From: Lactarius indigo
Lineage: Eukaryota; Basidiomycota; Agaricomycetes; Russulales; Russulaceae
Reading direction: 5' to 3'
NCBI GenBank assembly: GCA_025766275.1
Contig: JAFKAC010000097.1
Coordinates: 1-64,000, forward strand
Length of the DNA stretch: 64,000 nucleotides
The notes below the pieces were generated by a model. The model had not been told where the DNA came from. It made no database searches and worked only from the letters and a program-made list of their open reading frames with translations. The position numbers were made by a program, and so were the translations under genes. Shown one piece after another: positions 8,189-41,516 of the stretch (the stretch's first letter is position 1; the number at the start of each line of letters is the position of its first letter).

Positions 8189-8195
8189 GGGTTTT
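8189..8195 (+). promoter_or_regulatory. -1 ribosomal frameshift site GGGTTTT
   Basis: G GGT TTT in the gag frame fits the X XXY YYZ rule. Pol continues in the -1 frame and gag stops at 8205. A small stem (ACCCA...TGGGT) follows. The heptamer is conserved in H (36361-36367) and E (50853-50847, minus). Confidence 0.8.
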
Positions 8196-9561: not shown

Positions 9562-9599
9562 GGATTACCTGGGGGTAATCCTTGAAAAGGGGGTGATGT
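9562..9599 (+). promoter_or_regulatory. Conserved hairpin plus internal polypurine tract copy in RT
   Basis: GGATTACC and GGTAATCC form an 8-bp stem with a TGGG loop, immediately followed by TGAAAAGGGGGTGATGT (9583-9599). The latter is a 17/17 match to the 3' polypurine tract and LTR edge at 13019-13035. The hairpin DNA is identical in A, G, H and E, although neighbouring synonymous sites differ. The polypurine part is exact only in A. It could act as a central second-strand primer. Confidence 0.55.
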
Positions 9600-12641: not shown

Positions 12642-13018
12642 TTCCGGGATCTCCTTACATCTATGGACAACCACTGTACGCCACACCACGCCTCCCACAC
12701 AACAACCGCGCTTTTATCGCGCACGAAGACCTCTTCCTGCTCAGAGATCATCACCCCGCCGACGCTATGCTCCAACACATCGGGGACGTGACACTTATGG
12801 AAGAGGTGCGTCGTTACCGGCAGAACACATTTGCCAAAGAACAGCTGGAGAACCGCATCCGGCGACTACAGGAAGAAAAGGGGGTTGTTCACCATCGCAA
12901 GATGGATTCCATTTATTGGTTGGAACGTGCTAACGCTCTGCCAAGGGTCGAGGATGAGATAGAAGCGGTGAGGCAGCTCAGCAAGGATACGATTAACGTG
13001 TGAGGTGGGCCTCACTCC

Positions 13019-13032
13019 TGAAAAGGGGGTGA
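13019..13032 (+). promoter_or_regulatory. Element A polypurine tract
   Basis: TGAAAAGGGGGTGA lies directly before the 3' LTR. It is the expected RNase H-resistant primer for plus-strand DNA. Confidence 0.85.
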
Positions 13033-13532
13033 TGTTACGGTACGGACTTTACTATGGGTGTGTTGACTCATGACCGGTTATGACTACGGTCCGACTTAGT
13101 ATTAGTCATGGACTCTTACATCGTATCAGTCAGCAAGTAGTTCACATGTGATTCATGACTCTTGTATGACTCATTCCTAGGATAGCTGTACTAGGGTTTG
13201 AGCTAGTTACGCTACTGGTTACCTATCGTTTGAGCGGCGCTTTAAAGCCCGCATGTATCTGTATAAGTAGTTGTAACAGAAGACCAAGAGTCCCCATCTT
13301 GGTCTTCTTCAAATCCACTATTTGACTCATCTCTTGCCTTAGTCTTGGACTAAGAGTACTTCTGCTACTATCCACTAAGGGATAGTGCTTCTTCATCTTC
13401 GCTGCAGTGTGTGCTAAAGAGCCCCTGTTTAGCTCGCATTGGGTTGACACTATTCCCCATTTGCCTATTCTTCGCTAAGTCAATTACGCCTATCTTGAGT
13501 CCAAGTCGGACTAATGCCGGTAGAGCGTAACA
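13033..13532 (+). repeat. Element A 3' LTR
   Basis: 500 bp, starting TGTTACGG and ending GCGTAACA. It differs from the 5' LTR by ten transitions. The following bases (CACGT) do not duplicate the left flank. Confidence 0.95.
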
Positions 13533-14591: not shown

Positions 14592-17458
14592 ATGTCTGTG
14601 TATCGGTTTGGAGCGCGCGGTAGGGAGGGAAGGGAGGGACAAACAATACCCTCTCTCAATCCCCACAGAATGCCAACTTTCGAAATTCCCACAGGCCCCG
14701 CCATTACTCAAATGAGCCTCGCTTACGATGGTCCCAGAGAAGAGGCGCACCGCGCCAAACATGCCCTTACAAAACCTCGAAGGGGAAGCATGGCATTTGA
14801 CCGCGAGAATGGCGGGATGACGTTGGAATGGGCAAATGAGGAGGAATTCCTGGCTTGGCTTGCAGCCGAGGAATCGGAGAAGACAATAGAATTTCGTGTG
14901 AGTCAAACGTTCCAATCAGATTCATCGGACTGGCGGGAGCATCGCATGCTTCGGTGCTCGCGTGAATTCACAGGCAGGAAGCGGAATTACCAAAACAAGC
15001 ACCAATGGGAAAGGAAGATCCCATCGGAGAAGACAGGCTGTCAATGCCGTCTTACTGTTAAGCAGTACCCGCAAACAGATGTGATGCTCGGGAAGTATGA
15101 GGACCAGCACGATCACCCACTTGGCGATGATAATTTGCGATTCACCAGACTATCAGCCAAAATCAGGGACCTTGTCATGGACATGGTCCACACCGGCATC
15201 GATTCTAAGATAGTGGTGAGTCACAAACAAATTTGTTTTTTTTGCTGAGCTGACTATAATTCAGCTAAAACGCGTACGTGAATCCTGCAAGCGGACCGAT
15301 CGCGATTACTACATAACAATGCGCGACATAAGCCGTTACCATCGGATTGTGGAGGACGTGGAAATCCGCCTTGACGATAATGACGCGATCTCGCTTTGCC
15401 TTTGGGTCCTCTGGCTTCAGGACAGTGGTGCTGAGTGTGTCTTGAAGGACCGGAAAGATCCCCCTCCCCCTGAATCTGGATTATCCCCAGATTCTTTTGT
15501 CCTATGTATCCAGACCAAATTCCAGTTGGACTGCTTTTGCGCGCTCGGCAGCAATTTTGTGTCTATTGATGCAACCCACAACACCACTCAATATGCAGGG
15601 CTCCAGCTGTTTACCCTGCTTGTGAGAGATCTGTGGGGGCAGGGTATGCTTTTTGGCATTTTCTGTTTATGGACTGTATTCAATTCCGCTTGACAGGCGT
15701 CCCTGTCGCTTGGATGTTGTCGTCAAACGGGACGGAAGCGACAATCAAATATTTTCTTGAATTTGTAAAAGTGCGGAGCCCGGATATGTCACCCGCGATT
15801 ATTATGACCGACCGCAACAAAGCGCAAATGAATGCGATCTCGGCCGTGTACCCAGGGGCCACGGTGCTACTGTGCTGGTGGCATGTGCTCCGCGCTATCC
15901 GGATGTACTTGTGCACGGAAGAATTCCCGGAACTTTGGGAACGCATCCGCGCGTGGGTCAGAACATCCGATCAAATTGAATTTGATTCTTGGTGGGAAGA
16001 GATGCAAACCAGTGATTCGGTCCCTCAAAGCCTTGTAAAATATCTCAAGGCGAATTGGATGGGTATTGTACCACTTTGGTCAGGGACATACAGGAAAGAT
16101 CGGCCGATCTTCCAAGAGGGCGACACAAACATGCTAATCGAATCGTAAGTAGGCTTATCGCTCCAAGGGATAAGAGGGATCGCTCAAATCTATGTTTATC
16201 TAGCTACCATCATGTACTCAAATCAATGTGGCTTGAGGGGAAGCAAAATCGGCATGCCGATCATCTCGTCCACACGCTTGTAATCGATATGCTCCCGCAC
16301 TACCAGGCCTGCCATGATGGCCAAGAGGTTGGTTTCAGTGGTTCAAACCTGGCAGAGAAGCGTCGCAAAGAAATTCTTACTAGAACCCCGGAAATAAACG
16401 CCGACTCCATCTGCAGCCTAGGCGATGATCGCTATTCTGTGCAATCAGCAGCGGATACGTCGCGTAACTATCTAGTTAAGCTTAGCAAACGGTCTTGTGA
16501 CTGTCCAGACTGGCCCAGGGTCCGGCTGTGCAAACACATCACTGCGGTCACCCATTTTTTTGGAGACGGCGATCAGCTGGTGGAGCTGGCAGCAGGCGAC
16601 GGCGCAGCCCCTAAGACAGCGCAGCCGGTTGAATCAGAGTGCTCAGCAGATGCGCGCAGCGATGCGACAGCTGCGACAATTTTGGAGAATGTAATCACTG
16701 TCTCCAAAGAATTTCTAAGCGATGGTGCGCCCAAGTCTCCGGGCACTGTCCGGAGTCTTCACAGCATTCAGGAACACCTGACTGCTGTTGTCAGAAACTC
16801 ACACTCTTTGGAAAGCCCACTCCCGGACAAAGAAGACATCCCGCCGAATCAACACATGTGGACTGAGACCGCCCAGCGAATGGGAGTACAGCGGCGGAAG
16901 AAGAGACCTCGCACTACCACCACATCCTCCCCAGAACCCTCGGTGACAGAACGCATTGGGGATCTCAATCGCAAACGACAACGTGTGAAGATCACGGATC
17001 CCTACAGTGGCGGGGTCAACTCTGGCAAATGCGCTGCCCCCGACACGCAAACTGCTGCCCAAAATGCCCAAGCACAAGCACACGCACGCGCTGCAGCCAT
17101 TGGTGCGGGGCCTTCTCTCTCACAGCCCCAGGAACACGGCCACGGCTGCACGACCCCAGCCCCAGCTGTCCCCCCGTCACTCACCCCCTTCCAATCGTAC
17201 CCGCCTTCTTCAGTGGTTCCCCCACCTGCCTTGGCGCCTCGCGCATGGTACACAGCGCAAAACGGCAGAGCATACGCGTCTGCCAGTCCCAGTGCACCGG
17301 GAAACTCTCTCCCGCAATCCTTTGAACCACAGCATGCGCATAGAGGTACCCTAGCCCCATCCGCACCCCTGGCATCCTCGAGCCCGTGGTACCCTGTTCG
17401 CTCGGCTTACCCCCCCGGGATGTATATGCAGACCCCGTATCAAGTACCATACCTGTGA
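14592..17458 (+). CDS. MULE transposase (five exons, last exon displaced by element B)
   Basis: Catalyses cut-and-paste transposition of the MULE. Exons: 14592-15215, 15265-15643, 15697-16144, 16204-17453. The introns are 49, 53 and 59 bp with GTGAGT, GTATGC and GTAAGT donors. A zinc-binding N-terminal region (GCQCRLTVKQY...HDHPLGDD) precedes the MULE core (SIDATHN with the first Asp near 15568; IIMTDRNKAQMNAI; LCWWHVLRA), then a SWIM finger (CDCPDWPRVRLCKH, about 16497) and a Pro-rich tail. Element B inserted after TAC C at 17453 and supplies a premature TGA (17456-17458). The original frame continues at 27383-27435 for 17 more residues to TAG; about 917 residues in all. The truncated form may still work. 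The start could also be the later ATG at 14671. Confidence 0.85.
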
Positions 17459-18149
17459 TGAACTCACTGTCACTCGACAGCGAGGGATAAGGCTGGAGAC
17501 GACGTCGGGCAAGATAGAGACGGAGGGAGCGTCGAGGAGGACGAAGAGGAGGCGTCTTGGCTCAAAGGAAAGTAGTGGCGCACACAAGGTGGGGCACTCC
17601 GAAGGAGCTGAGAGGCAAGAGGGAAGATGTCACAAGTGGACAGTCTGAGGGACTGTCCGATAGATTGCGCTAGCTTATATACTACAGGGGGTGGTCTGTG
17701 CGTACGTTTAGGGCAGGCTTAGGGCCTGTCCACGGGTGCTGCGCAAAACTGCGGATTGGAACATTCCAGAGACAAGTTATTAATACTGTCCAATCAGAAT
17801 AAAGGTTAAGTATGGTGCGACTGCGCCGCAGTCAATGACGCCATATTGCGCCAGGATGGCGTGATTCCGCAGTAGCTGCGGAACCCGTGATTAGGACACG
17901 TGCCCCTTGTGACTTGGTTGATTATCTTCGTTGATCGGTAAACAATCAACCGTTGATTGATACACGTGCAGGTGTACATGTGACTTGGAAAGACAGAGTA
18001 ATCACGTGACACATCACGTGACCGTCGGAGAGTGAAATTCAAACTCTGATTTCGGATTTCCCCTTTAGGAAGTTGATGACATAAGCCCGGTCCGGCCTGG
18101 TCCGGTTCTAAGCGCCTTGAGTCACGACCAGGTTTATAGGTTCGTGACA
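17454..18149 (-). repeat. Element B 3' LTR
   Basis: 696 bp. In sense orientation it starts TGTCACGAACC and ends in TCACA. No difference from 26682-27377 was noticed. Confidence 0.95.
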
Positions 18150-18162
18150 GTATCCCCTTTTT
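18150..18162 (-). promoter_or_regulatory. Element B polypurine tract
   Basis: The sense strand reads AAAAAGGGGATAC directly before the 3' LTR and overlaps the pol stop codon (TAA, 18163-18161). Confidence 0.8.
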
Positions 18163-21100
18163 ATCGTCGTGCTATTCCACTAGCACTAGTTGATTTTGGT
18201 TTAGGGGCGCTGGGGTTGGCCTTGTGAAATTGACTAACAAGGTCTTGCGCGTGGGTCATTTGGGAGGAGGGGAGCCAGGAGTTTTCGGAGTCAGGATACC
18301 CCTTCCACTTGATCAAGTAGAGTATGCCCTTCTTGTTGGGCGATACCTTGGATTGTAAGATCCTTTCGACTTCGTAGTGTTCATCTTCCCCTTGGATGAT
18401 TTCAGGGGGTGGTCTGGTGAAGTTGGGGCCATGCGTGGTGTTTTCTTTGTATGGAGAGATCAAGGAGTTGTGGAAGACTGGGTGGATGCGCCACGTTTTG
18501 GGGAGTTGGAGCCTGCAATTGACTCCCCAGGTAGAAAGGACTTTAAAGGGGCCGTGGCGTCGTGGGGCAAGTTTAGCTTTGGGGTGGGTAGTATGGATGT
18601 TGGTTCCTTCCAGCCAGACTAGATCGCCTGTCTTGAATTCATGAGAGGGGGTGGGAGTTTTTGACGCTCTCATGACTTCTGCTGCTACTTTAAGGGCTGC
18701 AGTCACTTCAGAGCGGATTTGGTTTAGTGCATTTAGTCTTTCCTCAGCTGCAGGTATTTTGGTGGTGAAGTGGGTAGGGGGAATGAACTCCGGTTTGTAT
18801 CCATACCACACCTCGAATGGTGATTTGTGGGTTGCACTGTGTTGTCGGGCATTGTGTGCAAATTCCATGAATGGGATCAGGTCTACCCAGTTATCTTGTT
18901 GAAAGTTGCAGAAGACGCGAAGGTATTGTTCAAGTTCCTGATTAACACGTTCAGTTTCTCCATCGGTTTGTGGATGGAAAGCTGTAGATAGCGTGGATTT
19001 GACTCCGAGTTTGTTCCAAATTTCTTGCATGACTTTTGATGCAAATTGGGGGCCTCTGTCGGATATGATTTGTCGAGGAAGGCCGGTGCGTCTCCAGACA
19101 TTGTCTAAGTAGAGTTGGGCTGTTTCGTCTGCAGTGATGGTTTTGTTGCACGGGGAAATTACTACTGCTTTGCTGAGTCGGTCGACCACTACAAATAGTG
19201 AATCGTAGTTGTGGGATAGGGGAAGGTCGGTAATGAAGTCCATTGTGATGGTTCCCCATATTTCTTCAGGTATTGCATTTGGTTGTAGGGGTACTTGGGT
19301 ACGTGGTTTGATTTTAGTGGCTTGACATGTGGCGCAACCATCAACATAGGTTTTGACAAAGGTTGATATGCCTGGCCACCAGAAGTCTCGGGATATTAAC
19401 TCATAGGTCTTCCATCGCCCTGGGTGTCCTGTGGCGATGTGGTCATGGTACATTTTAACAATGTCTCTTCGTAGGTTGTCGTCTTTGGGAACGTAGACTT
19501 GTCCTTTGAACAAGATAATGCCATCTTCTAAGTTCCACTCCTCTAGGCCTTTAGCTAGGGAACGAGGGCCATTTTTTAAGAGGGATTCTAGGGCCATGCT
19601 GACTTCCTTGTCGTAGGTTTGGGTGGTTTTGATACGCTGTCGGAGGGTGGTATCACCTTGAATGGTTACTGCAGTTCGTTGTACTGCGTTGATGGAAAAA
19701 TACTTGGTATCCAGGAGCACTCGCTTTTCATCTTCATCCGCTATCCCCTTTTTATGATCTGGACGCCGAGACAGTGCATCAGACTTATTCTGTGTACCGG
19801 GTTTGTGGATGATGATGAACTGGAAGCGAGAGAGGAACAGGGCCCAACGGGCCTGTCGGCGAGAAAGTTTCTGTTTTGTGGTAAAGTAGACAAGGTTGCC
19901 ATGGTCAGACCAGATTTCAGTAACGTCGTCCCGCCCTTCCAGGTAGTGGCGGAAAGCATGCAAGGCATGGATGATGGCAAGAAGTTCCTTGTCGCAGATT
20001 TCGTAGTGACGCTCGGCAGGAAGGAGGGATTTAGAAAGGAAGGCAACGGGGTGCCAGCGTTGCAAGGCATCAGGTTGTTCCAGGATGGCACCGGTAGCAA
20101 AATCACTTGCATCAGTGATGAGGCGGAAGGGTGTAGAATGGTCGGGCAGGGCAAGGACAGGAGCTTTGGTGAAGCAATCAATCAGGGTGCGGAAAGCATT
20201 TTCCGCTGCAGTACCCCAAGAAAAGGGAACATCTTTCTTGGTTAGGTCAAACAATGGGCGGGCGATCGTGGAGTAGTCTTTAATGAAGCGTCGATAGAAG
20301 TTGCAAAAGCCGAGAAAGGCTTGTACTTGCTTGACAGTGCGCGGAGTGGGCCATTGAGTAATACCTGCAACCTTTGCGGGATCCATAGAGACTTGGCCAT
20401 CGGAGATGACGATTCCGAGGTATTCGACTGAGGTTTGTGCAAATGTACATTTTTCAGGTTTCAGGTAGAGGTCGTGGCGTTCCAGCCGTTGAAGCACGTT
20501 GTGTGTCAATGCTGTGAGTGAGGAGATATCGTCTGTGAAGATCAAGATGTCATCGAGGTAGACCACTACGTGTCCACCGTCAATCAAGGACTCGAAGATT
20601 TGGTTCATAAATGTTTGGAAGGTGGCAGGGGCATTGCAGAGGCCAAAAGTCATTACGGTTGGCTCGAAGAGTCCTAAGGATGTTTTGAAGGCTGCCTTGT
20701 ATTCATCGCCTTTGCGGATGCGGATATTGTTGTATCCCCAACGAATATCTAGCTTGGTAAAGTAGCGCGCACCATGGAGTTTGTCGATAAGTTCAGGGAT
20801 AAGGGGAAGAGGCGCTGCGTTCTTAATGGTTATATCATTGAGGGCATGATAGTCTTGCACAGGTCGAAGTTTGCCATCCTTCTTGTCGACAAAAAAGAAG
20901 GGGGAAGCCATGGGTGACTTAGATGGTCGAATGTAACCTTTCTTTAGGTGTTCAGAAATATACTCTTTGAGGGCATCGGATTCTTTCGGTGTAAGTCGAT
21001 AAATGCCACAATTCTTCATAGTGGCTCCTGGTTTGAGATCAATGGCGTGATCCCAAGGTTGGTGTCGGGGAAGTCGGTGGGACGCGATTTCGCTGAATAC

Positions 21101-21931
21101 GTTGGTGTAACGTTGGAAATGACTTGGAATATGGTCAGTGGAAGGCTTGGGTGCAGTGCGTGCTGCTATCTTGGTGCTTGTAGTTATCTTTGCTCGGATA
21201 GCAAGGTGGTCATACTTGTTAAAGCTGTGAATCCACAGCCAGGGTTCACAGGCGTCGGTGACGAATGTAGGCTCCAGAGGTTCTGTTTCGTCTTCTGTGG
21301 GGAGGTACGCTTCTTGGGTTGCTTCAAGTTCAAGGATGTTAATAGTCGTGTGTCGTGTTTGTGGAATCTTTGAAGAGACGACAACTGCTGAGGAGGACAG
21401 GGTACAGGTTCTTGGGCATCGTGTGAAGGCTATTTTTGGTTGATGCCAATCGATTTCCGGGTTATGTGCTTGGAGCCAATCTGTTCCTAAGATTATATCG
21501 TGCTCCCCTAGAGTAGTTGCATAAAGTTCCACGGTTTCGTCGTGGTAGTTGTCGTCTGAAGTTCTGATCCGTAGTCTTTGGATCGTAGTATACCTAACAG
21601 ATCCCGTTTTGTTGGGAGACCCATCCACGTTTCTAACTGGTAAGGGTTTAATTAGTGTCCGCATTGTTAGGTTGTTTGCTCGCGCAAACCCATCATCCAC
21701 GATGATGCCCTCCGCACCGCTGTCCAACAGGGCACGGGCACTGATTTCTTTGCCAGACTTCTTTCCTACTAGTGTAACTCTGAGAACAATTGAAGGAGCT
21801 CTCCTATTCCGAATTGTTTCTACAGGTACATGCTCGGCTCCGAGCGTCTCTAGTAGGGAAAGGCCGTGTACAACGCTACTGGCACAAATACTTCCAATCG
21901 ACAGTGCTATGATGGAAGAGCCTAAAAATCC
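18161..21931 (-). CDS. pol: Element B Pol polyprotein
   Basis: 1256 codons, open from GGA at 21931 directly after an in-frame TGA; no stop inside. It is in the -1 frame relative to gag, with only a few bases of overlap. Domains in order: protease (LLDSGAEGIIVDDGF, near residue 70); RT with YLDD at 20560-20549 (residues 458-461); RNase H (ITDASDFATGAIL, EIWSDHGNL, KSDALSRRPD); integrase with HHCC (HIATGHPG...CATCQ) and DDE (MDFITDLP, ISDRGPQFASKVM, TDGETERVNQ); GPY/F (RRHGPFKVL); chromodomain (YEVERIL...YLIKWKGYPDSENSWLP) close to the C-terminus. The chromodomain would target integration to modified chromatin. A conserved Arg in RT (DYRALND in C) is His here, possibly a CpG change. Confidence 0.95.
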   Translation of the reverse strand, partial: GFLGSSIIALSIGSICASSVVHGLSLLETLGAEHVPVETIRNRRAPSIVLRVTLVGKKSGKEISARALLDSGAEGIIVDDGFARANNLTMRTLIKPLPVRNVDGSPNKTGSVRYTTIQRLRIRTSDDNYHDETVELYATTLGEHDIILGTDWLQAHNPEIDWHQPKIAFTRCPRTCTLSSSAVVVSSKIPQTRHTTINILELEATQEAYLPTEDETEPLEPTFVTDACEPWLWIHSFNKYDHLAIRAKITTSTKIAARTAPKPSTDHIPSHFQRYTNVFSEIASHRLPRHQPWDHAIDLKPGATMKNCGIYRLTPKESDALKEYISEHLKKGYIRPSKSPMASPFFFVDKKDGKLRPVQDYHALNDITIKNAAPLPLIPELIDKLHGARYFTKLDIRWGYNNIRIRKGDEYKAAFKTSLGLFEPTVMTFGLCNAPATFQTFMNQIFESLIDGGHVVVYLDDILIFTDDISSLTALTHNVLQRLERHDLYLKPEKCTFAQTSVEYLGIVISDGQVSMDPAKVAGITQWPTPRTVKQVQAFLGFCNFYRRFIKDYSTIARPLFDLTKKDVPFSWGTAAENAFRTLIDCFTKAPVLALPDHSTPFRLITDASDFATGAILEQPDALQRWHPVAFLSKSLLPAERHYEICDKELLAIIHALHAFRHYLEGRDDVTEIWSDHGNLVYFTTKQKLSRRQARWALFLSRFQFIIIHKPGTQNKSDALSRRPDHKKGIADEDEKRVLLDTKYFSINAVQRTAVTIQGDTTLRQRIKTTQTYDKEVSMALESLLKNGPRSLAKGLEEWNLEDGIILFKGQVYVPKDDNLRRDIVKMYHDHIATGHPGRWKTYELISRDFWWPGISTFVKTYVDGCATCQATKIKPRTQVPLQPNAIPEEIWGTITMDFITDLPLSHNYDSLFVVVDRLSKAVVISPCNKTITADETAQLYLDNVWRRTGLPRQIISDRGPQFASKVMQEIWNKLGVKSTLSTAFHPQTDGETERVNQELEQYLRVFCNFQQDNWVDLIPFMEFAHNARQHSATHKSPFEVWYGYKPEFIPPTHFTTKIPAAEERLNALNQIRSEVTAALKVAAEVMRASKTPTPSHEFKTGDLVWLEGTNIHTTHPKAKLAPRRHGPFKVLSTWGVNCRLQLPKTWRIHPVFHNSLISPYKENTTHGPNFTRPPPEIIQGEDEHYEVERILQSKVSPNKKGILYLIKWKGYPDSENSWLPSSQMTHAQDLVSQFHKANPSAPKPKSTSASGIARR
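21922..21931 (-). promoter_or_regulatory. Gag-pol junction: -1 slip at a U5 run on the gag stop
   Basis: The sense sequence is GAG GAT TTT TAG in gag and GGA TTT TTA GGC in pol. The pol frame is closed by TGA just upstream, so any -1 shift must occur on the five T residues next to the gag TAG. Identical in C (57592-57601). It is not a standard X XXY YYZ site; the mechanism is inferred. Confidence 0.55.
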
Positions 21932-23472
21932 TCATTAATAGGCTCCGAATGCGGACGTGCGTCCGGGTCAAAAGGGAGTATCTCTCAATATATCGCTCCA
22001 ATGTTTGCTGGGTGGTCAGCAGGTGCTTCCTCCTGACTTGGTTCATCAACAAAGGCGCCGCGCGCCCTAGCGTTGCTGTTGGATTGGCCTCCTTTGGCCT
22101 TCATAGCTGCCGTCTTGGCGTGACATTCCTTAAGTACGTGGCCCGGTTTGCCACAGTACAGACAGAGTTTATTCTTGAAGCGATACTCTCGCTCTTCCTT
22201 GGTAAGTTTGGCTCTTGGTTTGGTAGTTCGTGATGAGGAGGCGTTGACATTTACGCTGTCATCCTCTGCTAGGACGGCTCGTCCTGCGGTAGGCTTATGG
22301 GTCTTGTTAAACTGGTTAATGGCGTGACCAGCGTAAATTCGATAGGCGCGATCAAATTCTCTTGCTTTCTCGACAAGGGCGTCGAAGGTGGTAGGGATGG
22401 GGGATATGCCAAGCAGCTTCATGTTTAGAGCCGTTGGAATAGCTTGTCGGAAAGCATACATCTTGGTTTGTTCATTTGCACCACTCCGTGTAGCATGGGT
22501 TGACCATTCTTGGAACCATTCATTGAAAGGTCGGGTCCCCATCTTCAGAGAATACATTTTGTTGGTGGATTCCATGGCAGTATGACCAGGAACGAAGTGT
22601 GCATCAAAGTCAGTTTTGAACTGTGCCCAGGTGCCAAAGGATATTGCCGCTCCTCCGATTGGGTTCAAGGCTTTCTTTTGTCTATCTTGAGCCCATTCTC
22701 CTGCTGAGGTTCCAACCTTGAAGTAGGTAAGGGCAGTGGATACCTTTTTGTCGTCAGAGTTAAAGATATCCTGGTTTAGATGGAAGTAATTGGCCAGGTT
22801 GTTCCAAAAGGCCTCAGCATGGTTGGGCTTGCCATCAAAGGGCTCAGGCGCTGCGCCTAAGATTTTTGCAGGTGCAGGGGCTGCCATTGCAGTGGGTACA
22901 GGGGGAACGGATAAAGGGGGTGCCGAGGAAGAGGCTTGAATAGTTAGGGGTGGTGATGGGAGTCGATGTGGGGGAACTGTTGCAGGGAAACGACTAGGGC
23001 CGGAGGTACTAGGGGAAATCTGGGGTGTCGAGGGTCGGGAGGTTACTTGGGATAGTAGACCAGAGAGTTTTTTGGTAGTAGTGTCTAGGATTTGTGATAC
23101 TTCTTCCGTGTCGCTGTCTGAATCTTCGGATTGACTAGGTGTGTTAAAATGGACTGGTTTGTTGTTTAGGTAGATCCACTGTTCGTTTACGAAGTTCCAG
23201 CGGACGTTCTTTCCTTTGAAAGTGGCGTGTAGGGAGTTGTAACTTAGGTCTTTGACTTTGTCGATACCAGGAAAGGCTTCTTTTAGGTCTTGAAAAACGA
23301 TTTGGTGTTGGGTGGCAACTATTGTCCACGGGTGTTGTCCTGTAGGACTACAGATATCCTCTTCCTTCCACTTGGCGTAGTAAAGATTATCGGTGAGGGA
23401 AAAATAGGGGTCGAAAAAGTATACGGGGATGTGGGCTTTTTCTTCAGGTGTGAGAGGTCGTTGTGTGTTCAT
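21922..23472 (-). CDS. gag: Element B Gag (late in-frame TGA)
   Basis: Starts at ATG 23472-23470, the first ATG of the predicted transcript. It runs 495 codons to TGA 21987-21985; element C has CGA there and continues 21 more codons to TAG, so B has a recent nonsense change. An N-terminal region (IPVYFFDPYFSLTDNLYYAKW) is followed by a Ser/Pro linker, a capsid domain (EPFDGKPNHAEAFWNNL, WAQFKTDFDAHFVPGH, NEWFQEWSTHATRSG) and a zinc knuckle CLYCGKPGHVLKEC near residue 440. It forms particles and binds RNA. If the last residues matter, the TGA also blocks the frameshift into pol. Confidence 0.92.
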
Positions 23473-23475
23473 ACA

Positions 23476-24189
23476 CTAGTTCTGGAGACGGGTGACAGTC
23501 CAACTGTCTATGTTCCAAGGGTAATAGACTTTATAGGCAGGGAGCAAGATGGCACGGTCTGGGTGGTTGGTTCTTTGTTGTCGACGGATCCAATGGTATT
23601 CTTCCCAAATACCAAAGTGGGTTAGGATGGTCTTACTTCTCCACAGGAAGTCTTGGAAATATAATGGGCTGGTGGTGATTTCTGTTGCCCTAGTGAGGGG
23701 TTGAGCAAAGAACAAGGTTTCGTTGGTGTGTCGGTTTTGATAGAGGAGGGTACAGTGGCGCTTGAAAACGTCGAGTTCTCTAGGGGTCCGTGTGGGTAAA
23801 CTTTTGGTTACGAGGATCGCTTCAGGAAGGTGACAGTAAATCTCCCTTGGTTGGGTTTCGAGGTATTGTGCTTCGTCACTGCTAGTGGTGTGTTGTCTAG
23901 GGATGTCTTGGATACTAGGGAAGACGGGTTCGTGTGGGCTGGATTGGTTAATACTAGGGAGTTGACTAGGGGTTCGTCGATGGGCACGAGCTACTTGTCT
24001 TGGAATTACTGGGGTAGTGTTTGTAGAGGTAAGGGGACGGGTGTCTATTTGGGGACGGTGGTGACGCCTTCTTGTAGTTCGTTGAGAGGATGCCAGGGTG
24101 ATTGCCCAATTTGTGATGGGTTCCAGGTTGATGTTTGACAGGTGTAATTTTTTTTTTCGGGTTTTTCGCTTAAAGTTGCGACTTAACAC
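23476..24189 (-). CDS. Element B ORF3, novel conserved protein without AUG
   Basis: 237 codons counted from GTG 24189 (homology to element C begins about 20 codons later). It contains no methionine. The C-terminal half is best conserved: EAQYLETQPREI, LPTRTPRELDVF, SPLYFQDFLWRSK, FGIWEEYHWIRR, DSWTVTRL. Differences from C sit mostly at third codon positions. It stops at TAG 23478-23476, three nucleotides before the gag ATG and in the same frame, an arrangement suited to reinitiation. No known domain is recognised. The N-terminal part is basic and low in complexity. Confidence 0.75.
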   Translation of the reverse strand: MLSRNFKRKTRKKKLHLSNINLEPITNWAITLASSQRTTRRRHHRPQIDTRPLTSTNTTPVIPRQVARAHRRTPSQLPSINQSSPHEPVFPSIQDIPRQHTTSSDEAQYLETQPREIYCHLPEAILVTKSLPTRTPRELDVFKRHCTLLYQNRHTNETLFFAQPLTRATEITTSPLYFQDFLWRSKTILTHFGIWEEYHWIRRQQRTNHPDRAILLPAYKVYYPWNIDSWTVTRLQN

Positions 24190-24220
24190 TTTTCAGCAAA
24201 AGTAGGTCCCGACAAAATTT

Positions 24221-25246
24221 CTAAAAATCGTCTACGCTTCCTTGGTACGGTAAGTAATTAAGTCCGGGGGCCCACAATACGACGTTAGGAGGGGTAGGGG
24301 GAGTAATTGGTCTAAATCCACAAGTGCAGACTTCGTTTGAACACCAACAAGGGTTGGTGTTAACTGGGTTATTCCAAGTATCCACTACTGTTGCGTCTTC
24401 TTCGTCAGTGTCTCCGTTATGGAAAGAGACGTCACGGTCTCGGACAGAGACGTCTTCGTCTGGTGTGGCGAGGGATTCAGGGTCACTGGTGGAGTCACTG
24501 GGGGGAAGCTCAAGGGCTGTTATTCGGTCGAGTAGGGAGGGGCGACGATGGCGTAGAGGTCGTCTTCCTCTTGCTAGCAGGAGCTCTATTAGCTCAGGGT
24601 CTTCTGGGGTACTAGGGGGTTCAAGGAAGGTTCGGGGGTTAACTCGATTGTGGTCAGGGTTGGTGAAGGTAGTTTCCCAGGTCCCAGTGGCAAAAGTGTA
24701 AGTTAATTCTCTTCCTTCTACAATGACTAGACGAGGTGGGGAGGCGCCGACCTGGACAACTCGTAGTTCGTGAAATCCGATTTGTAATTCTTGGTATGTT
24801 AGGAGGACTCGATTGGTGTAGAATTCTGAATATCCGGCTTGGATATTGCTGATGATTTGGTTTCGTCGGGGGGGAATGGTGATGAACCAGAGATAGTCGC
24901 TCTTGGTCCAGACTAGGTATTGGTCTGTTGGTCTGTTGTTGTTGTCGACACTTCCTGAGAGGTGCCAATACAAGAGTTGCTCGTTGGCGTCGTCGACCAG
25001 AAGGGGTAGGGTGTCTAGGAAAGCCTCGTGCAGTTCTTCGGAGTCAGTATCCCCAAAGGCAAAGTTGTGGTGAAATTTCGAGAGAACTAGAGGGGGGTTT
25101 GTCCAACAATCAACAGAGTGGTCGGTAGATAAGTCGCTAAGAGAGGAAGGGGGGTAGTATCGTTCGAGTTGTCTTTGTCTGTGAGTCTCAAAGTTAGCTT
25201 GGGCTAACGCGAGTCTTTGCCCTTCAGTAAGTCGTTCTGGGGGCAC
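24221..25246 (-). CDS. Element B ORF2, novel conserved protein without AUG
   Basis: 341 codons, no methionine. The frame opens immediately after a TAA, giving TAA GTG CCC CC, and C has TAA GTG CCG CC, so GTG is the best candidate start. Conserved blocks: FE(T/S)HRQRQL, EQLLYWHLS, LVWTKSDYLWF, PPRR, LTYQE, and a C-terminal Cys cluster CWCSNEVCTCG followed by PPTPPNVVLW and NYLPY. The cluster could bind metal. A GAGT-loop hairpin ends exactly on the G of the GTG. Function unknown; not an envelope-like protein (no signal peptide or membrane segment seen). Confidence 0.75.
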   Translation of the reverse strand: MPPERLTEGQRLALAQANFETHRQRQLERYYPPSSLSDLSTDHSVDCWTNPPLVLSKFHHNFAFGDTDSEELHEAFLDTLPLLVDDANEQLLYWHLSGSVDNNNRPTDQYLVWTKSDYLWFITIPPRRNQIISNIQAGYSEFYTNRVLLTYQELQIGFHELRVVQVGASPPRLVIVEGRELTYTFATGTWETTFTNPDHNRVNPRTFLEPPSTPEDPELIELLLARGRRPLRHRRPSLLDRITALELPPSDSTSDPESLATPDEDVSVRDRDVSFHNGDTDEEDATVVDTWNNPVNTNPCWCSNEVCTCGFRPITPPTPPNVVLWAPGLNYLPYQGSVDDF

Positions 25247-25266
25247 TTATAACCACTCGGTATAAG
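25246..25266 (-). promoter_or_regulatory. GAGT-loop hairpin at ORF2 start
   Basis: The sense stem CTTATACC / GG(T)TATAAG with loop GAGT has one bulged base. Its 3' arm contains the TAA and ends on the G of the candidate GTG start of ORF2. The counterpart in C is 60846-60865. Confidence 0.6.
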
Positions 25267-25307
25267 GCTTTTTAGATAGTGGTGTTTACTTACTTATTGC
25301 GTTGAGG

Positions 25308-25327
25308 CTTAAAACACTCGTTTTAAG
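25308..25327 (-). promoter_or_regulatory. GAGT-loop hairpin after ORF1
   Basis: Perfect 8-bp stem CTTAAAAC / GTTTTAAG with sense loop GAGT, about 60 nt after the ORF1 stop. Counterpart in C: 60907-60926. Conserved bases AACGCAA and AAGTAAGTAA follow in both. Confidence 0.6.
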
Positions 25328-25383
25328 TTATCAAGGCAAGTTTATTTGTTCAAAAAAAAAGGGTGCGTCCCCCTTGCTGACTT

Positions 25384-26652
25384 CTAGAGGGGTTGGGAGT
25401 CGGGGAAGGTAGTAATGAAAGAGAAAGGATCGGCAGGGATACGAGGGGTAAGGCAGTAAGCAAGTAAGTGGGGGGAGGCGCGAACTAAGTCCTCAAAAAA
25501 GTAGGCTTGGTGGTAAGCGTAGATCTGTCCGTCGATAGCAAAACGAAGATGTCCGTAACTGGTCACGATTCTCCCGTCCAAGAAGTCTTGAATCTCTAGG
25601 GTAACTAGGGAATCAATATACCCGGCCCTATGGATGTTAGTGAGGGGGGCAAAAACACGTCGCAGGCCCTCCCTGAAGTCGTAGCGAATTGTTCCAAAAG
25701 GGGTGTCTGGAGAGGGAAGGTCGTAGACGGCCCTGGAACAGATGTAGAGAGGGGGGAAGTTGGGGTGTTGAGTGGGATCAACGATGCGAGGGAAAAGGGT
25801 GTAGACGTGAGGGGAAAGGAGACGAAAGGGGGTGACTGAGGGAAAAACTGGGGGGTAATTGGCAAGGGTGGTAGCGAGGGGAACTCTGGTGATCAGTTCC
25901 CGAAGTGTAGTAGAGGCGGGTCGCCAAGATTCTCCCTGAGGAGTGATGACCGCGATGTAAAGATGGGGATGCTCTCCTTGGTGAAGGAGGCAAGGGGGGG
26001 CTTGATAGGCGGCAGCAGCAGCAGGAGGAAAGTTCTCCTGGTTGGGGTGAGGGGCAGGAGGGGCTTGTTCAGCTACCCTCTCGTAGTTAATAGGGGAGTC
26101 AGGGGTGGGGGGGCGCGAGGCAACTGGAGGAGGCGAGGGAGAAGGAGGGCGCGGAGGAGTATCAATAGGTAGCGAAGGAGAGGCACGAGGGGTGGTTGTT
26201 GCGTGGGAAGGAAGGGGGGGGCGTGGTGTAGGGAGACGAGCAGGAGGCGCAGACTCGGCGCGTGGTTCAGGAGAAGGAGTGCGAGAGAGCTCAACTATGT
26301 TTCCGTTGAGGTCTACTATCTCGAGTACTTCTTCGTAAAATTGTGCGGTGCTTGGGGAGACAGAACGAGGGGAGGGACGAGGGGTGGCTTCAGGGTCAGG
26401 GTAAACTAACTCTGGGGTGACTTCCTGACTTTCTAAGACGGGTGAAGGAATGACAGGGGGGGAGAAGCTTGGGGTAGGAAGAGGAATGTAAGGGGTTTCT
26501 GGGAGACGAGAGGTGGATGCGATAGGGGAGCGAGTAAAAATGGAATCGAGGGGGCTACCCTGGAAGTAACTATCTTCCTGGTAGCTGCAGGAATCTCCGT
26601 CCCAATGTCCAAACTGCGAAAAGTCGTAGTCTGAATCCACTGAGAAAGCCCG
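25384..26652 (-). CDS. Element B ORF1, novel Pro-rich protein without AUG
   Basis: Open from 26652 (after TGA) to TAG 25386-25384, about 420 codons with no methionine. The first half is Pro/Ser rich (TPRPPLPSHATTTPRASPS). The second half is globular and very similar to C: YQAPPCLLHQGEHPH, TPQGESWRPASTTLREL, FPSVTPFRLL, IDSLVTLEIQDFLDGRI. It is the 5'-most reading frame of the transcript. In C the same frame extends back into the LTR to the RNA start; in B an indel breaks that extension. Function unknown. Confidence 0.75.
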   Translation of the reverse strand, partial: RAFSVDSDYDFSQFGHWDGDSCSYQEDSYFQGSPLDSIFTRSPIASTSRLPETPYIPLPTPSFSPPVIPSPVLESQEVTPELVYPDPEATPRPSPRSVSPSTAQFYEEVLEIVDLNGNIVELSRTPSPEPRAESAPPARLPTPRPPLPSHATTTPRASPSLPIDTPPRPPSPSPPPVASRPPTPDSPINYERVAEQAPPAPHPNQENFPPAAAAAYQAPPCLLHQGEHPHLYIAVITPQGESWRPASTTLRELITRVPLATTLANYPPVFPSVTPFRLLSPHVYTLFPRIVDPTQHPNFPPLYICSRAVYDLPSPDTPFGTIRYDFREGLRRVFAPLTNIHRAGYIDSLVTLEIQDFLDGRIVTSYGHLRFAIDGQIYAYHQAYFFEDLVRASPHLLAYCLTPRIPADPFSFITTFPDSQPL

Positions 26653-26669
26653 AGGTCAGTCTATTAAAG

Positions 26670-26679
26670 AGACTGTCCA
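26670..26679 (-). promoter_or_regulatory. Element B self-priming primer-binding site
   Basis: Sense TGGACAGTCT, two nucleotides after the 5' LTR, is the exact reverse complement of AGACTGTCCA (sense, 26874-26865), the predicted RNA 5' end. It is 10 nt long and uses a different sequence from the A family, which argues that self-priming itself is what is conserved. Confidence 0.7.
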
Positions 26680-26681
26680 AG

Positions 26682-27377
26682 TGTGATGAACTCACTGTCA
26701 CTCGACAGCGAGGGATAAGGCTGGAGACGACGTCGGGCAAGATAGAGACGGAGGGAGCGTCGAGGAGGACGAAGAGGAGGCGTCTTGGCTCAAAGGAAAG
26801 TAGTGGCGCACACAAGGTGGGGCACTCCGAAGGAGCTGAGAGGCAAGAGGGAAGATGTCACAAGTGGACAGTCTGAGGGACTGTCCGATAGATTGCGCTA
26901 GCTTATATACTACAGGGGGTGGTCTGTGCGTACGTTTAGGGCAGGCTTAGGGCCTGTCCACGGGTGCTGCGCAAAACTGCGGATTGGAACATTCCAGAGA
27001 CAAGTTATTAATACTGTCCAATCAGAATAAAGGTTAAGTATGGTGCGACTGCGCCGCAGTCAATGACGCCATATTGCGCCAGGATGGCGTGATTCCGCAG
27101 TAGCTGCGGAACCCGTGATTAGGACACGTGCCCCTTGTGACTTGGTTGATTATCTTCGTTGATCGGTAAACAATCAACCGTTGATTGATACACGTGCAGG
27201 TGTACATGTGACTTGGAAAGACAGAGTAATCACGTGACACATCACGTGACCGTCGGAGAGTGAAATTCAAACTCTGATTTCGGATTTCCCCTTTAGGAAG
27301 TTGATGACATAAGCCCGGTCCGGCCTGGTCCGGTTCTAAGCGCCTTGAGTCACGACCAGGTTTATAGGTTCGTGACA
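26682..27377 (-). repeat. Element B 5' LTR
   Basis: 696 bp, the promoter-bearing copy. It matches 17454-18149 along its length by reading. The U3 part does contain ATG trinucleotides on the sense strand, unlike the region downstream of the predicted start. Confidence 0.95.
26865..26909 (-). promoter_or_regulatory. Element B core promoter and start-site palindrome
   Basis: Sense TATATAAG begins at 26909, 35 bp upstream of the A at 26874 that starts AGACTGTCCA. Arms GGACAGTC and GACTGTCC flank a 5-nt loop around this position. The same spacing is found in C (62486 to 62451). Confidence 0.7.
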
Positions 27378-33792: not shown

Positions 33793-34314
33793 TGTTACGT
33801 TTTGACTCGGGAGTGTAATGCGGACTCGGACCCTTACTGTACCAGTTGCAACTACGGCAGTAAGGTAGATTAGTTGCGGACTTACCTACGGTGATACGGT
33901 AGTGCGATAGGCGATTACGACTGATAGCTGACTGAGCAGTGCCTTGGTGACTCGATACTAGTACAGGTACTAGTAGTATTAGTTTTGTGGTACTTCTGCG
34001 ATACGTTGGACGCTACTTACTGTGACTCATAGCAGCGCTTCTAAGCCTGCTTGACTTGTGTATTTAAACTGTCTTGTGAAGACCAAGATACACCATCTTG
34101 GTCTTCTTGAATCATCACTTCTCTTCTCTTTCATTCTCACCTCTAAGAGTGTCCGACATTGTTCGTGACTAAGTCAACTAAGCTTGCCAGTGTACCTCCG
34201 TGTATTCACTAGGGCAAGGGCTTGGACCTTCGCATCTTCAAGTCAAGGAAGCTATTGCTAAGTTGTTACCGTCATTCTGTGCTCAAGTCGAGCTAACATC
34301 ATGGCGACGTTACA
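33793..34314 (+). repeat. Element H 5' LTR
   Basis: TGTTACGTTTTGAC...GACGTTACA. TATTTAAA at 34061 lies 34 bp before ATCTTGGTCTT at 34095. A 12-bp inverted repeat GAAGACCAAGAT / ATCTTGGTCTTC surrounds the start. An ATG at 34301 is GTG in the 3' LTR, so it arose by CpG decay. Confidence 0.95.
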
Positions 34315-34316
34315 TT

Positions 34317-34327
34317 AAGACCAAGAT
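34317..34327 (+). promoter_or_regulatory. Element H self-priming primer-binding site
   Basis: AAGACCAAGAT, two bases after the LTR and the reverse complement of 34095-34105. Confidence 0.8.
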
Positions 34328-36379
34328 ACCATTGTGGCCGTAACAACAAGAGATCAGTGGACGAGTTTCTGTCCCTATTCGCTCCCTAGAAGAGGAGACC
34401 GTAACGTTCCAACGCACTTCCTAGGAGCAGCAAGTTGGAGAGACAGGCAGGAAGAAACAGGATATTTTGTGGAGTTTAACGGACCTAGCAGATTCGGACC
34501 AGTTGAGTTCAACTTCGACCACTTGTGTTGGACAGAAGTTACGTGGAACCCGATAGACGCGCATTGGGACGTCATCAGACCAGCAGGACCGAGGTATCGC
34601 TGCAACATCGACGCGCGAGAACTCAATAGTAGAGCCGATTGGGGCCCCATCGACGGACAACTACAAGAACACACTACCGGAGAAGCAGTATCAGAAGAGA
34701 CCGGTGAAGACGAACAAAGCCAAGAAGAAAGCGGCAAAGAAAGCGAAGGACGACAGCCAAATCAGACAGAAAGCAGTGGAGGAGCAATACAAGATCTCCT
34801 CATTGAACGAGCTGAGTCCGCACATATCACGGAACCAGAACCAATTCATATCCGTTCGCCAGCCCTCATGGCCACTATAACACAAGCGATGGAAGAAGTC
34901 GCGCTTGAAGAATCGCACGCAATACGAGTGGAGGCAAGAGAAATACTTATGCCTATCGATCCAGAAACCAGAAGACAAATGACGGCAGATGACACCGCAA
35001 TATTTCGAGCAATAGGGTCCGACAGAGGAGATCCACCATCAGGAAGACCCATTGCATTAGAACTACCACCCGGCACTGGCGGACCCAGCGGAGACCCTCC
35101 ACCACCGCCCGATGGGGGAGTCCCTTTCGACATACGCAGAACTGAACCACCGCAAGGACCACCCGCCAGACCACCAGGCGGAGGCAGAGGAGGAAGAGAC
35201 GCTGGAGGAGGAGGACATCACAGTGAAAAATTAACTGGCGAGCCACCCTCAATTTTTGACGGAGACAGACTTAAAGTGGACCAATTTCTGACACAGTGGC
35301 ACGTGTACTGGGGAATGAACTTGGACGCCCCTATCATGCAAAACGACTATAGGAGATGCCTCCTATTTTTGTCCTACATCAAAGGTGGAGCAGTCAGCGA
35401 ATGGGTCTTGTCCTTCCTGAATTGGCTCAACAGACAAATACAACGAGGGATCAGTCCCTACACTTGAGATCTATGGGAGGCCGTAGCTGATGGCTTCAGC
35501 CAACGCTTTGAAAACACGCTAGAATGGGAGCAGGCGCAGGCCATACTGCAAAAAGGTTTCAAGATGACAGGAGAAGATATTGACAAGTATGTCAACGACT
35601 TTGAGCAGCTAGCACAGAAGGCTCACTATCGTCTCAACGAACCGCAAACCATCGATCTCTTCACGTCAGGTTTGCCCAAGGAACTGTTCAAAAACGCGTT
35701 CCAATTCGATGACCCAATCACGTTCGACGATTGGAAGAGGGCCGTCCTCAAACGGCAGAAGAATTACATACACCTCAAGGCGAGACTCAATGAGTACAAA
35801 AACACGACGACACAGCCGAAGAAGCAAAGCGGCAATGCTGGGTGGACACTCCCACAGAACCTACCACAGACTAATCCATGGGCAATGGATACCTCTGCAG
35901 ACCGTGCCAAGGTGAGGCTTGCAGGGTCTGAAGATGTCGACTTCGATAAGCTACCCCACACGTGGTCTTCACCCCCGTTCCCGCCACGAGGAGGACCTGG
36001 AGCCAGAGGACGAGGAAGAGGAGGATCTCGAAGGGATCTAAGGAACGTCCTTTGCTATAACTGTAACGCTCCAGGACATCTCTCATGAAATTGTCCATAT
36101 CCGCGAGTACAGAGGCAGTGGCAGAACCCCCCCTCAAGTAGCAGGATGTCCGAAACCACGTGGCCCCAAGGACTGATATTGCAGTACGAACCATCGCTAC
36201 CAGGTTACGCATCGCCGCCAGTCAGTGCAACACCCATGCCGCAGATTAACGCAGCCACTACAAAGACCGCCGGAGAACAAGCAAAGGAATGGCTCACGCA
36301 GGTGGCCAACAGTATGGATGAGGTAAAAGACCTCATACTTCAAGATTTGTGGGGAAAAGAGGGTTTTCGGGACGCCTAA
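34319..36379 (+). pseudogene. gag: Element H gag
   Basis: The frame opens after a TAA at 34316 and reads GTG GCC at 34334 without any ATG until MATITQ at 34868. The upstream part nevertheless encodes the conserved N-terminal domain (RDQWTSF, RGDRNVPTHFLGAA, VTWNPID, IDARELNSRADWGPIDGQ). The linker is Gly/Pro-rich; the capsid part contains FLTQWHVYWGMN and YVNDFEQLAQKAHYRLNEPQ; the knuckle is CYNCNAPGHLS*NC, broken by TGA 36086 (CGA in E). A second TGA lies at 35465. It ends at TAA 36377-36379 after the slip site. Confidence 0.9.
36361..36367 (+). promoter_or_regulatory. -1 frameshift site GGGTTTT
   Basis: G GGT TTT in the gag frame; pol continues in -1. A small stem ACCCA...TGGGT follows, as in A. 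Confidence 0.8.
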
Positions 36380-37395
36380 ACCCATCAGTCTGGGTGAGGG
36401 CTCTACAATGTAATTCTGTAATTGTGACAGCACGCTACCAATCTCTACGAATTCCAGTGACCGTCCACACGAATTACCAAATGACTGAAACCAACACGTT
36501 GGTTGACTCCGGAGCAACCGACAATTTCATTCGACCTAGTATGGCAGCACGGGCCAGCATCCCGGTGCAGCAATTAGAAACGCCACGCAAGATATGGAAT
36601 ATAGATAACACGGAAAACAAAGCTGGGTTAATCACTCATTACGTTAACCTAGAAGTGAAAACACGAGGACAGAAAAAACGGATGACCTTCCTGGTAACCG
36701 ACCTCGGAAGCGAAGACATGGTGCTCGGCTATCCATGGCTGAGCGCCTTCGAACCCACTATTAGCTGGGCAACAGCCACGATGCATCCCAACATGCAGCC
36801 TGTAGTACTGGCTACTACTGAAGAGCTGCTTACCACGTCTGCTGTTTGTGCCTTAATCGTGGCCGAAAAGGAAGACATCGTACGAGAATTGGAGGAAGAA
36901 GCATCCGCCCGCGCCACTACCTTGACGGAATTGGCAATACAGGCGAAGCAACAACAAACTGCGGCCATGCTTCCGCCGGTATATGCGGAGTTCAGCAGAC
37001 TCTTTGATGAGCAAGCCTCGCGTCGATTCCCCCCGGCAAGACCATGGGATCACGCAATTGACTTCAAACCATCGGCGCCGGCGTCAATCGACTGCAAGAT
37101 ATATCCCATGACGCAGAAGGAAGAAGGAGAGCTCAAAGACTTCCTAGAGGAAAAGCTGCAACAGGGCTACCTACGCCCTTCCATCTCCCCGTACGCATCC
37201 TCCTTTTTCTTTATCAAAAAGAAGGACGGAAAACTATGCCCAGTACAGGACTATCGGGTCATCAACTCACATACCATTCGAAACCAGTACCCGCTGCCGC
37301 TCATTCAAGACCTGATTCTCGACCTCAGCAACGCCCATATTTACACCAAGCTTGACATCAGGTGGGGTTACAACAACATACACATTCGCGACGGA

Positions 37396-37801
37396 TGTCA
37401 CGATCACGTGACATCGTGACTATCGGTCACGCGTTACATCGTGCCAGCAAAGCATCAAACAAAGTATGACCTCAGAGTTTCGGAATAGCACGACTGACAG
37501 TGCTAATGAGCACGCCTTATGGTGCTCATCAGGAAAATAGTCATGAAAACCAATAGTTTGTAAGAGTATAAGTAGTAGCTGTCTGAGTAGCACCTTTTGG
37601 TTGTCTACTCTTAGTTCTTGAATCCGACCTAGCTTGCCTTGTCTCAGAACCCCGCGTACTCTCCCCTCTCTCTAGCGATACTCTTCGAGTTGAGCCTAGA
37701 ATTCCCCGAATCTTGACTTGTTCGCAGAACAAGTCCCGACTCTGCCCGAACGTCGAGCTCAGCTCCGTAGAAAACCCGGACGGTCCCTCGGAACCGTAAC
37801 A
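37396..37801. repeat. Solo LTR in element H RT
   Basis: 406 bp, TGTCACGATC...CCGTAACA, flanked by a perfect ACGGA duplication (37391-37395, 37802-37806). Removing it and one repeat restores the RT frame. It contains a TATAAG-like box. No internal region remains, so it is a solo LTR of a further family; strand not determined. Confidence 0.85.
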
Positions 37802-41137: not shown

Positions 41138-41516
41138 TCCTAGGGGTCATACCTGGTTCGCCCCACGTTTACAGCAAACCCCTCTATGCAGAACCGCACG
41201 TTTCGGCGGTTCTTCGCCCCATTTACCCACACGAAGACCTCATCGCGTTTGCCGCCGACAAGATCACGGACCGCGCGCTCAACCGCATTAACAACGAGAC
41301 GCTCATGGCGGAAGTGACGCGCTACCGCGCGGCGAGCCATGAGGTGGACCACCTCCATGCACAGGTGAGTCAACTCCGTGCTATGATCTTGTGCGCGCAG
41401 GACGACAAGCGCGACTGCATCTACCGCCTTGAGCGCACCACAGCACTGGAGCGCATTGCCGACAAACAGAGCAGTTGGCCGCCAAGGGACTTTCGGTGAG
41501 TCAGGGACTCACACTG

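Follow-up and report, generated by a model that had tools for sequence, protein, structure and literature searches.

An AUG-free leader of 3.4 kb and putative split start codons ahead of gag in a Ty3/gypsy retrotransposon of Lactarius indigo

Self-priming chromoviruses of the Tf1/sushi type carry long terminal repeats (LTRs), a primer-binding site (PBS) complementary to the 5' end of their own RNA, and an integrase with a chromodomain. A pair of related Ty3/gypsy elements on the minus strand is present in the 64,000 nucleotides (nt) of Lactarius indigo DNA analysed here (GenBank assembly GCA_025766275.1, contig JAFKAC010000097.1, positions 1 to 64,000; "the window"): W1 at 17454-27377 and W2 at about 53141-62938. 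Compared with Tf1/sushi-type elements, W1 adds three accessory open reading frames (ORF1-ORF3) before gag, a long leader free of AUG, and a PBS lying in a putative intron. We propose from the sequence, with a probability of about 0.72, that AUG was purged from this leader so that unspliced RNA can be scanned over 3.4 kb to gag, and that the AUGs of ORF1 and ORF2 would arise only in spliced RNA.

The genome of the Caulimoviridae has neither LTRs nor an integrase; both are present in W1, and its membership of that family was rejected for this reason. The preliminary description of this DNA knew of no LTR element with such a leader; a parallel does exist, the closest working one being in pararetroviruses (rice tungro bacilliform virus, RTBV, and the badnaviruses) and not in LTR elements, as far as the available part of the source goes (PMC5902531). 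According to that text, RTBV starts ORF I at AUU, ORF II at a moderate AUG and ORF III at the main AUG, the 900 nt of ORFs I and II hold no internal AUG, P4 is made from spliced RNA, and badnaviruses are predicted to act likewise (PMC5902531). W1 resembles these viruses in its upstream ORFs without internal AUG, a predicted non-AUG start and a weaker AUG before the main one, and resembles RTBV in making one protein from spliced RNA, which here is a prediction; ribosome flow and non-AUG initiation through the W1 ORFs would be RTBV-like. AUG-free upstream ORFs of this type, in all frames, were found in 8 of the 12 counted copies whose ORFs are open, both window elements being among the 8. The AUG-free path described for RTBV is about 900 nt, and the one proposed here is about four times as long, the first AUG coming after about 3.4 kb and the second gag AUG (AUG2) after about 4 kb; splicing fuses RTBV ORF IV to an upstream ORF of the leader, and split start codons, putative in W1, are not mentioned in that text. 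Cer1 of Caenorhabditis elegans produces CERV from spliced RNA, in the accessible part of its description (PMC10309623); it combines an unspliced gag/pol RNA with an accessory protein from spliced RNA, as is predicted for W1, but CERV exons 1-3 are in the gag frame and exon 4 is in its own, and that text mentions no AUG-free leader. In Cryptococcus, as reported in the available text, leaky scanning of a weak AUG1 followed by a strong in-frame AUG2 serves the dual localization of host proteins (PMC7049704); W1 gag shares the weak AUG1 and strong AUG2, dual localization being described for the Cryptococcus genes. Among the titles and abstract openings of the best matches in the open-licence literature, none describes a retroelement with an AUG-free leader of this kind or with a split start codon, and the putative split start codons tied to loss of the PBS are the part without any match in that search.

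The W1 RNA is predicted to start at 26874, because a TATATAA box (26909-26903) lies about 35 nt upstream and because of the self-primer rule: its first 10 nt (26874-26865), AGACTGTCCA, are the reverse complement of the PBS, TGGACAGTCT (26670-26679), a pairing that is the self-priming arrangement of Tf1-like elements and locates the RNA start as closely as sequence by itself allows. W2 is arranged in the same way (AGACTGTCCA beginning at 62451, PBS at 62257-62248), with 10 of 10 nt complementary in both elements and AGACTGTCCA starting 35 nt past the first base of the box in each. From this start to gag, the plus strand of W1 contains not a single CAT over 3402 nt (23473-26874), as the preliminary description had stated; the opposite strand, said there to be rich in ATG, has 35 in the same interval. 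The flanking sense ATGs stand at 23470-23472 and 26990-26992, which makes the ATG-free run 3517 nt long (23473-26989). The edge of this run had been equated with the predicted start; sense ATG does occur in the U3 region of the LTR, but the run extends 115 nt into U3 and the coincidence is not exact. The expectation of about 50 ATG given earlier was also too high for this composition, as dinucleotide shuffles yield 19.6 (sd 3.7, minimum 11, n=200). ORF1-ORF3 are indeed all without Met, their lengths from stop to stop being 423, 341 and 238 codons instead of the 420, 341 and 237 first given.

The deficit is very probably not a mere effect of composition, as the preliminary description also argued: it is specific to one strand and to AUG, and goes beyond both dinucleotide and synonymous shuffles. 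Shuffled leaders of W1, L017, W2 and L040 (L017 and L040 being two further copies in the genome) are expected to contain 19.6, 18.1, 16.8 and 18.9 ATG, respectively, and each real leader has 0. CTG, GTG, TTG, ACG and the other codons starting with AT are undepleted, TTG being somewhat enriched. When the synonymous codons of ORF1-ORF3 were shuffled in 8 copies, 8.3-9.5 out-of-frame ATG were expected per copy, 0 were observed, and none of 1000 shuffles reached 0 in any copy; out-of-frame ATG is thus scarce beyond chance, in addition to the absence of Met codons. U3 and the part of gag beyond AUG2 do hold ATG.

The 90.3-Mb genome contains many copies of the element, ORF2 alone matching 121 places, some of them fragmentary. 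We read 42 leaders or parts of leaders (40 further copies, W1 and W2), the genome holding additional ones, and counted ATG in the 29 in which both anchors, the RNA start and gag, were located with correct spacing; 13 were dropped because an anchor was missing or the spacing was wrong. Of the 12 counted copies with ORF1-ORF3 all open, W1 and W2 included, 8 were free of ATG and the remaining four had 1, 2, 2 and 5; the 17 copies with a broken ORF had 0, 0, 1, 1, 2, 4, 4, 5, 5, 5, 9, 9, 10, 11, 24, 25 and 25 (Mann-Whitney p 0.0005, inexact since the copies are related). It is this contrast between open and broken copies that makes selection against ATG visible. The W2 leader (59143-62451, minus strand, 3309 nt), which belongs to a separate lineage, contains no sense ATG either, at a synonymous distance of 0.9-1.8 from W1. 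Normal AUG counts in homologues, which the preliminary description had named as grounds for abandoning its view, are not found in the intact copies read, and its proposal of selection against AUG ahead of gag is supported by a deficit that is specific to AUG, that both lineages maintain and that disappears as copies decay. Decayed leaders (L023, L025, L028, L030 and L048-L052) show TGA stops and changes such as CGAGT to CAAGT and ACG to ATG, which look like the outcome of methylation or of a process resembling repeat-induced point mutation. Three copies (L034, L035 and L038) look mosaic, combining a W2-type ORF1 with a W1-type U3, ORF3 spacer or gag junction, and the two lineages may recombine.

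The three ORFs evolve as proteins, judging from their substitution patterns. The ratio of nonsynonymous to synonymous rates (dN/dS) ranged from 0.06 to 0.44 over 18 comparisons and from 0.09 to 0.33 between lineages; between W1-type and W2-type copies it was 0.19-0.20 for ORF1, 0.23-0.33 for ORF2 and 0.09-0.14 for ORF3, and between W1 and L017 it was 0.09, 0.26 and 0.09. Homologues of ORF2 were found down to 30% identity, and homologues of ORF1 and ORF3 were found as well, the named sources being Lactarius sanguifluus, L. deliciosus and L. hengduanensis and the others including metagenomes. Among homologues that are plain ORFs, internal Met accounts for 2 of 7736 residues in ORF2 (24 proteins), 1 of 1630 in ORF3 (8 proteins) and 3 of 2378 in ORF1 (6 proteins, all three in the protein P0040); W1 pol, for comparison, has 13 Met in 1256 residues. 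With the exception of P0040, the 26 NCBI-sourced hits were excluded from these counts, since exons are joined in gene models; internal Met is present once or a few times in many of these hits, and 41 times in P0038, mostly in a stretch upstream of ORF1. No Pfam family matched W1 ORF1-ORF3 at E up to 1. ORF1 is predicted to have a Pro-rich N-terminal half and a folded C-terminal half. At the C-terminus of ORF2 (24221-24330), the residues of a CxC...CxC motif and of PPTPP are invariant in 20 of 20 aligned proteins, and are perhaps metal-binding. The first residue of database homologues varies with the source, being M in all ena entries and V or L in 14 of 15 from jgi; it seems to reflect source convention and was left unused as evidence on start codons.

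The start codons of ORF1 and ORF2 are probably each split by an intron that is spliced. Putative intron 1 (26640-26695, minus strand, 56 nt) reads A/GTGAGT...CTGAC...TCAG/TG, the oblique marking the splice sites, and its removal would join A 26696 to TG 26639-26638, giving an AUG in the frame of ORF1 (25384-26639, minus strand, 418 codons from the split start) in the strong context GACATGG. Conservation of ORF1 begins at the GTG of YAG/TG, and GACA/GTGAGT stands 56 nt upstream of it (55 in W2). The intron ends are present in 32 of 42 copies, and all 32 give M in the ORF1 frame, the predicted N-terminus being MDSDYDFS in one group and M followed by A, T or S and then D in the other. A CTRAY branch site lies 19-20 nt from the intron end in each of these 32, the search pattern having contained neither the branch site nor the reading frame. 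When the acceptor base was not prescribed, the ORF1 GTG was preceded by CCA (20 copies), TCA (8) or CTA (2), so that YAG is found in 30 of 30. In the W1 and W2 leaders this is the sole sense match to the fungal intron consensus (GTRNGT..CTRAY..YAG), 0.23-0.25 matches being expected from shuffles; the antisense strand has one match in W1 and none in W2. Putative intron 2 (25246-25293, minus strand, 48 nt), A/GTAAGTAA...TATAAG/TG, in short A/GTAAGT...AAG/TG, would likewise join A 25294 to TG 25245-25244 as an AUG at the head of ORF2 (24221-25246, minus strand, 341 codons). Conservation of ORF2 begins at the GTG of AAG/TG, 47-53 nt past A/GTAAGTAA; the ends are present in 38 of 42 copies, all 38 giving MPP, and 100 genome sites retain a related unspliced form, TTTAAG/TGCC. 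GTRAGT donors occur in the W1 leader solely at introns 1 and 2, and in W2 at the same two places, the second doubled. An AT/G split would be unworkable, because AT/GT is itself an AUG in unspliced RNA; solely the A/TG phase works.

Gene models from related species fit both junctions at the protein level, at which they were compared. LSSD-MSDY appears in 12 of the 26 NCBI-sourced hits (11 from L. sanguifluus, 1 from L. hengduanensis), and the letters CTG TCG AGT GAC A before donor 1 in this genome, which form part of the hairpin H1 described below, read LSSD and then A/TG; six NCBI-sourced hits read NAT-M, five of them NAT-MPP, as removal of intron 2 would give. Intron 1 spans the last bases of the LTR and the PBS, and RNA spliced there could therefore not be primed in the element's own way. 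Spliced junction 1 was found nowhere in the genome, against 200 unspliced sites (representing fewer elements, as donor 1 is possible in both LTRs), which is expected if splicing removes the PBS.

The conserved part of ORF3 (23476-24126, minus strand, from the predicted CUG at 24126-24124 through the stop, with an Arg-rich N-terminus) opens with CTG GAA or CTG GAT; all 39 matches carry A at -3 and G at +4, the G having been part of the search pattern; the homologue residue ahead of the start Leu (I, T, K or S) mostly permits a codon beginning with A. ORF3 likely starts at this CUG, reached by leaky scanning, and its start is the least certain of the ORF starts. Gag AUG1 (23470-23472, minus strand), 6 nt past the first base of the ORF3 stop, has a weak context: T occupies -3 and A occupies +4 in all 31 copies (the A belonging to the pattern). 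AUG2 (22885-22887, codon 196) stands in the strong context GCAATGG, position -3 being a purine and position +4 G in all 27 copies (the G belonging to the pattern); four additional copies have AUG1 and no recognisable AUG2. The two lie 585 or 639 nt apart (584 and 640 in single copies), with no ATG in any frame between them in W1 and none in 20 of the 27 copies, the other 7, which are decayed, having 1-5; synonymous shuffles of this interval in 6 copies gave 2.8-4.2 expected ATG and 0 in 3-16 of 1000. In W1 the ORF3 stop precedes the gag AUG by 3 nt (TAG TGT ATG), in W2 the two overlap (ATGA), and this equal closeness in two different frames fits reinitiation. According to the proposed mechanism, 40S subunits on unspliced RNA would scan the AUG-free leader and reach gag, where the weak AUG1 and the strong AUG2 would yield two Gag forms by leaky scanning, perhaps also with reinitiation after ORF3; removal of intron 1 or intron 2 between A and TG would create the AUG of ORF1 or ORF2, and RNA lacking intron 1, and with it the PBS, would serve as messenger only.

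Several observations weigh against this proposal. The Lactarius proteins with matching junctions are gene models from an annotation pipeline. Intron 2 is a weaker candidate than intron 1: it has an AAG acceptor, is without a canonical branch site and was missed by the intron consensus scan. No retrocopy lacking it was found (two matches were left unread), though splicing of intron 2 alone would retain the PBS; if intron 2 is spliced, this would therefore be rare or confined to RNA that is not packaged. The patterns used to pick copies themselves required A/GT and AG/TG ends, and 10 of 42 copies (intron 1) and 4 of 42 (intron 2) did not match. Among open-ORF copies, 4 of 12 carry 1-5 ATG, and 2 of 17 broken copies carry none. 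The ORF3 CUG is not unique, since RNNCTGG occurs 3-5 times per leader, at the expected frequency, and no acceptor was found for ORF3, which leaves the three ORFs without a single shared mechanism.

The alternative that survives best, though we hold it to be unlikely, is that ORF1-ORF3 all begin at near-cognate codons (GUG, GUG and CUG) on unspliced RNA, the intron-like ends being fortuitous or rarely used. GTG is the first codon of the conserved frame of ORF1 and ORF2 in the aligned lineages, V comes first in 11 of 12 jgi homologue calls of these two ORFs, and non-AUG starts are known in basidiomycetes, according to the accessible text on Cryptococcus (PMC7049704). The GTG codons, however, have a pyrimidine at -3 in 30 of 30 copies (ORF1) and 33 of 34 (ORF2), and sit exactly where an intron end leaves A/TG; at ORF1 all 30 copies have C or T before AG, the form of a splice acceptor, the only full sense intron consensus of the leader ends at the ORF1 GTG, and the Lactarius models match both junctions. 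The near-cognate starts such as GUG that the preliminary description had envisaged for all three ORFs are accordingly not supported, and probably wrong, for ORF1 and ORF2; for ORF3 a non-AUG start is retained, likely CUG and not GUG. Less probable again is that the leader is never scanned, Gag being made from an RNA in which donor 1 is joined to a site close to gag, or by a ribosome shunt from the 5' end to gag. A pyrimidine-rich CAG directly upstream of gag AUG1 could be such a site, and (G)GACAGT, some 36 nt ahead of AUG1, is a possible pairing partner of the 5' end ACTGTCC; such a bypass would leave unexplained why AUG is absent in three frames over 3.4 kb, and mostly as far as AUG2, and RNA spliced at donor 1 would lack the PBS. 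It is very improbable that composition, mutation bias or recent copying, and not selection for translation, explains the absence of ATG: base composition does lower the expectation from 50 to about 20 and the copies are related, but a deficit confined to one strand and to AUG persists across lineages and fades in decayed copies, relatives only 30-48% identical are almost without Met, and ATG is found in U3 and in gag behind AUG2.

Beyond the purging of AUG and the split start codons, it is possible, although we advance it only tentatively, that the arrangement acts as a start-codon switch giving one RNA two fates, the spliced form being messenger only and the unspliced form both genome and Gag messenger, with the balance set by the element through an RNA-binding protein. 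Removal of intron 1 would at once assemble the ORF1 AUG and delete the PBS, other AUGs, in or out of frame, being purged over about 4 kb save the weak gag AUG1; since GAGU hairpins cover or adjoin the putative splice sites and ORF3 has an Arg-rich N-terminus, the element may set the switch itself, as Rev does in human immunodeficiency virus. Three minus-strand hairpins share a GAGT loop closed by C-G: H1, CTCGCTGTC-GAGT-GACAGTGAG (26691-26712), with splice donor 1 in its 3' arm; H2, CTTAAAAC-GAGT-GTTTTAAG (25308-25327), before donor 2; and H3, CTTATACC-GAGT-GGTTATAAG (25246-25266), whose 3' end is acceptor 2. The W2 lineage adds H4 before ORF3. Paired changes between lineages are found in H3, the arms being CTTATACC with GGTTATAAG, CTTAAACC with GGTTTTAAG, or CTTAAATC with GATTTAAG, and these hairpins are possible sites controlling splicing or packaging. 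A GACAGT...ACTGTC motif (23512-23498) is also present about 36 nt before gag AUG1, parts of it recurring at the RNA start (26873-26865) and the PBS (26679-26670); its GACAGT could pair with the RNA 5' end.

In the remainder of its structure, W1 is a chromodomain Ty3/gypsy LTR retrotransposon. Its pol (18161-21931, minus strand; protease, reverse transcriptase, RNase H, integrase and chromodomain) contains RVT_1, RT_RNaseH, Integrase_H2C2, rve and Chromo above the Pfam cut-off, in Ty3 order, and its gag frame (21985-23475, minus strand) contains Retrotrans_gag above the cut-off, zf-CCHC and zf-CCHC_5 falling below theirs. The 5' LTR (26682-27377, TGTCACG...CATCACA) is a direct repeat with 17454-18157 and the 3' LTR lies at 17454-18150, its inner end being placed from the alignment offset. 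The LTR pair is 99.7% identical within each element, and the 5-bp target duplications are GGTAT (W1) and GTAAG. In W2 the putative introns lie at 62219-62273 and 60846-60896, and ORF1, ORF2 and ORF3 at 60957-62219, 59863-60846 and 59139-59807, all on the minus strand. The gag frame closes earlier in W1 than in W2, where it ends at GAT TTT TAG (57592-57600 region) and the -1 frame continues via TTT TTA GGC, as the W1 pol frame does (counterpart region 21931-21987); the arrangement resembles a site of -1 frameshifting at the gag-pol boundary. Two further LTR elements with different LTRs are present in the window (5729-13532 and 33793-42050), in which, on the plus reading, the first ATG stands 90 and 553 nt past the LTR.

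If the proposed reading is true, W1 is an LTR retrotransposon with three accessory genes ahead of gag, in which a single intron phase (A/TG) conceals start codons in one RNA and reveals them in another. To our knowledge, its leader would then be the longest AUG-free scanning path, and it would offer a natural test of the distance that fungal 40S subunits can scan. Gene finders that expect a genomic ATG may join or miss the ORF1-ORF3 families.

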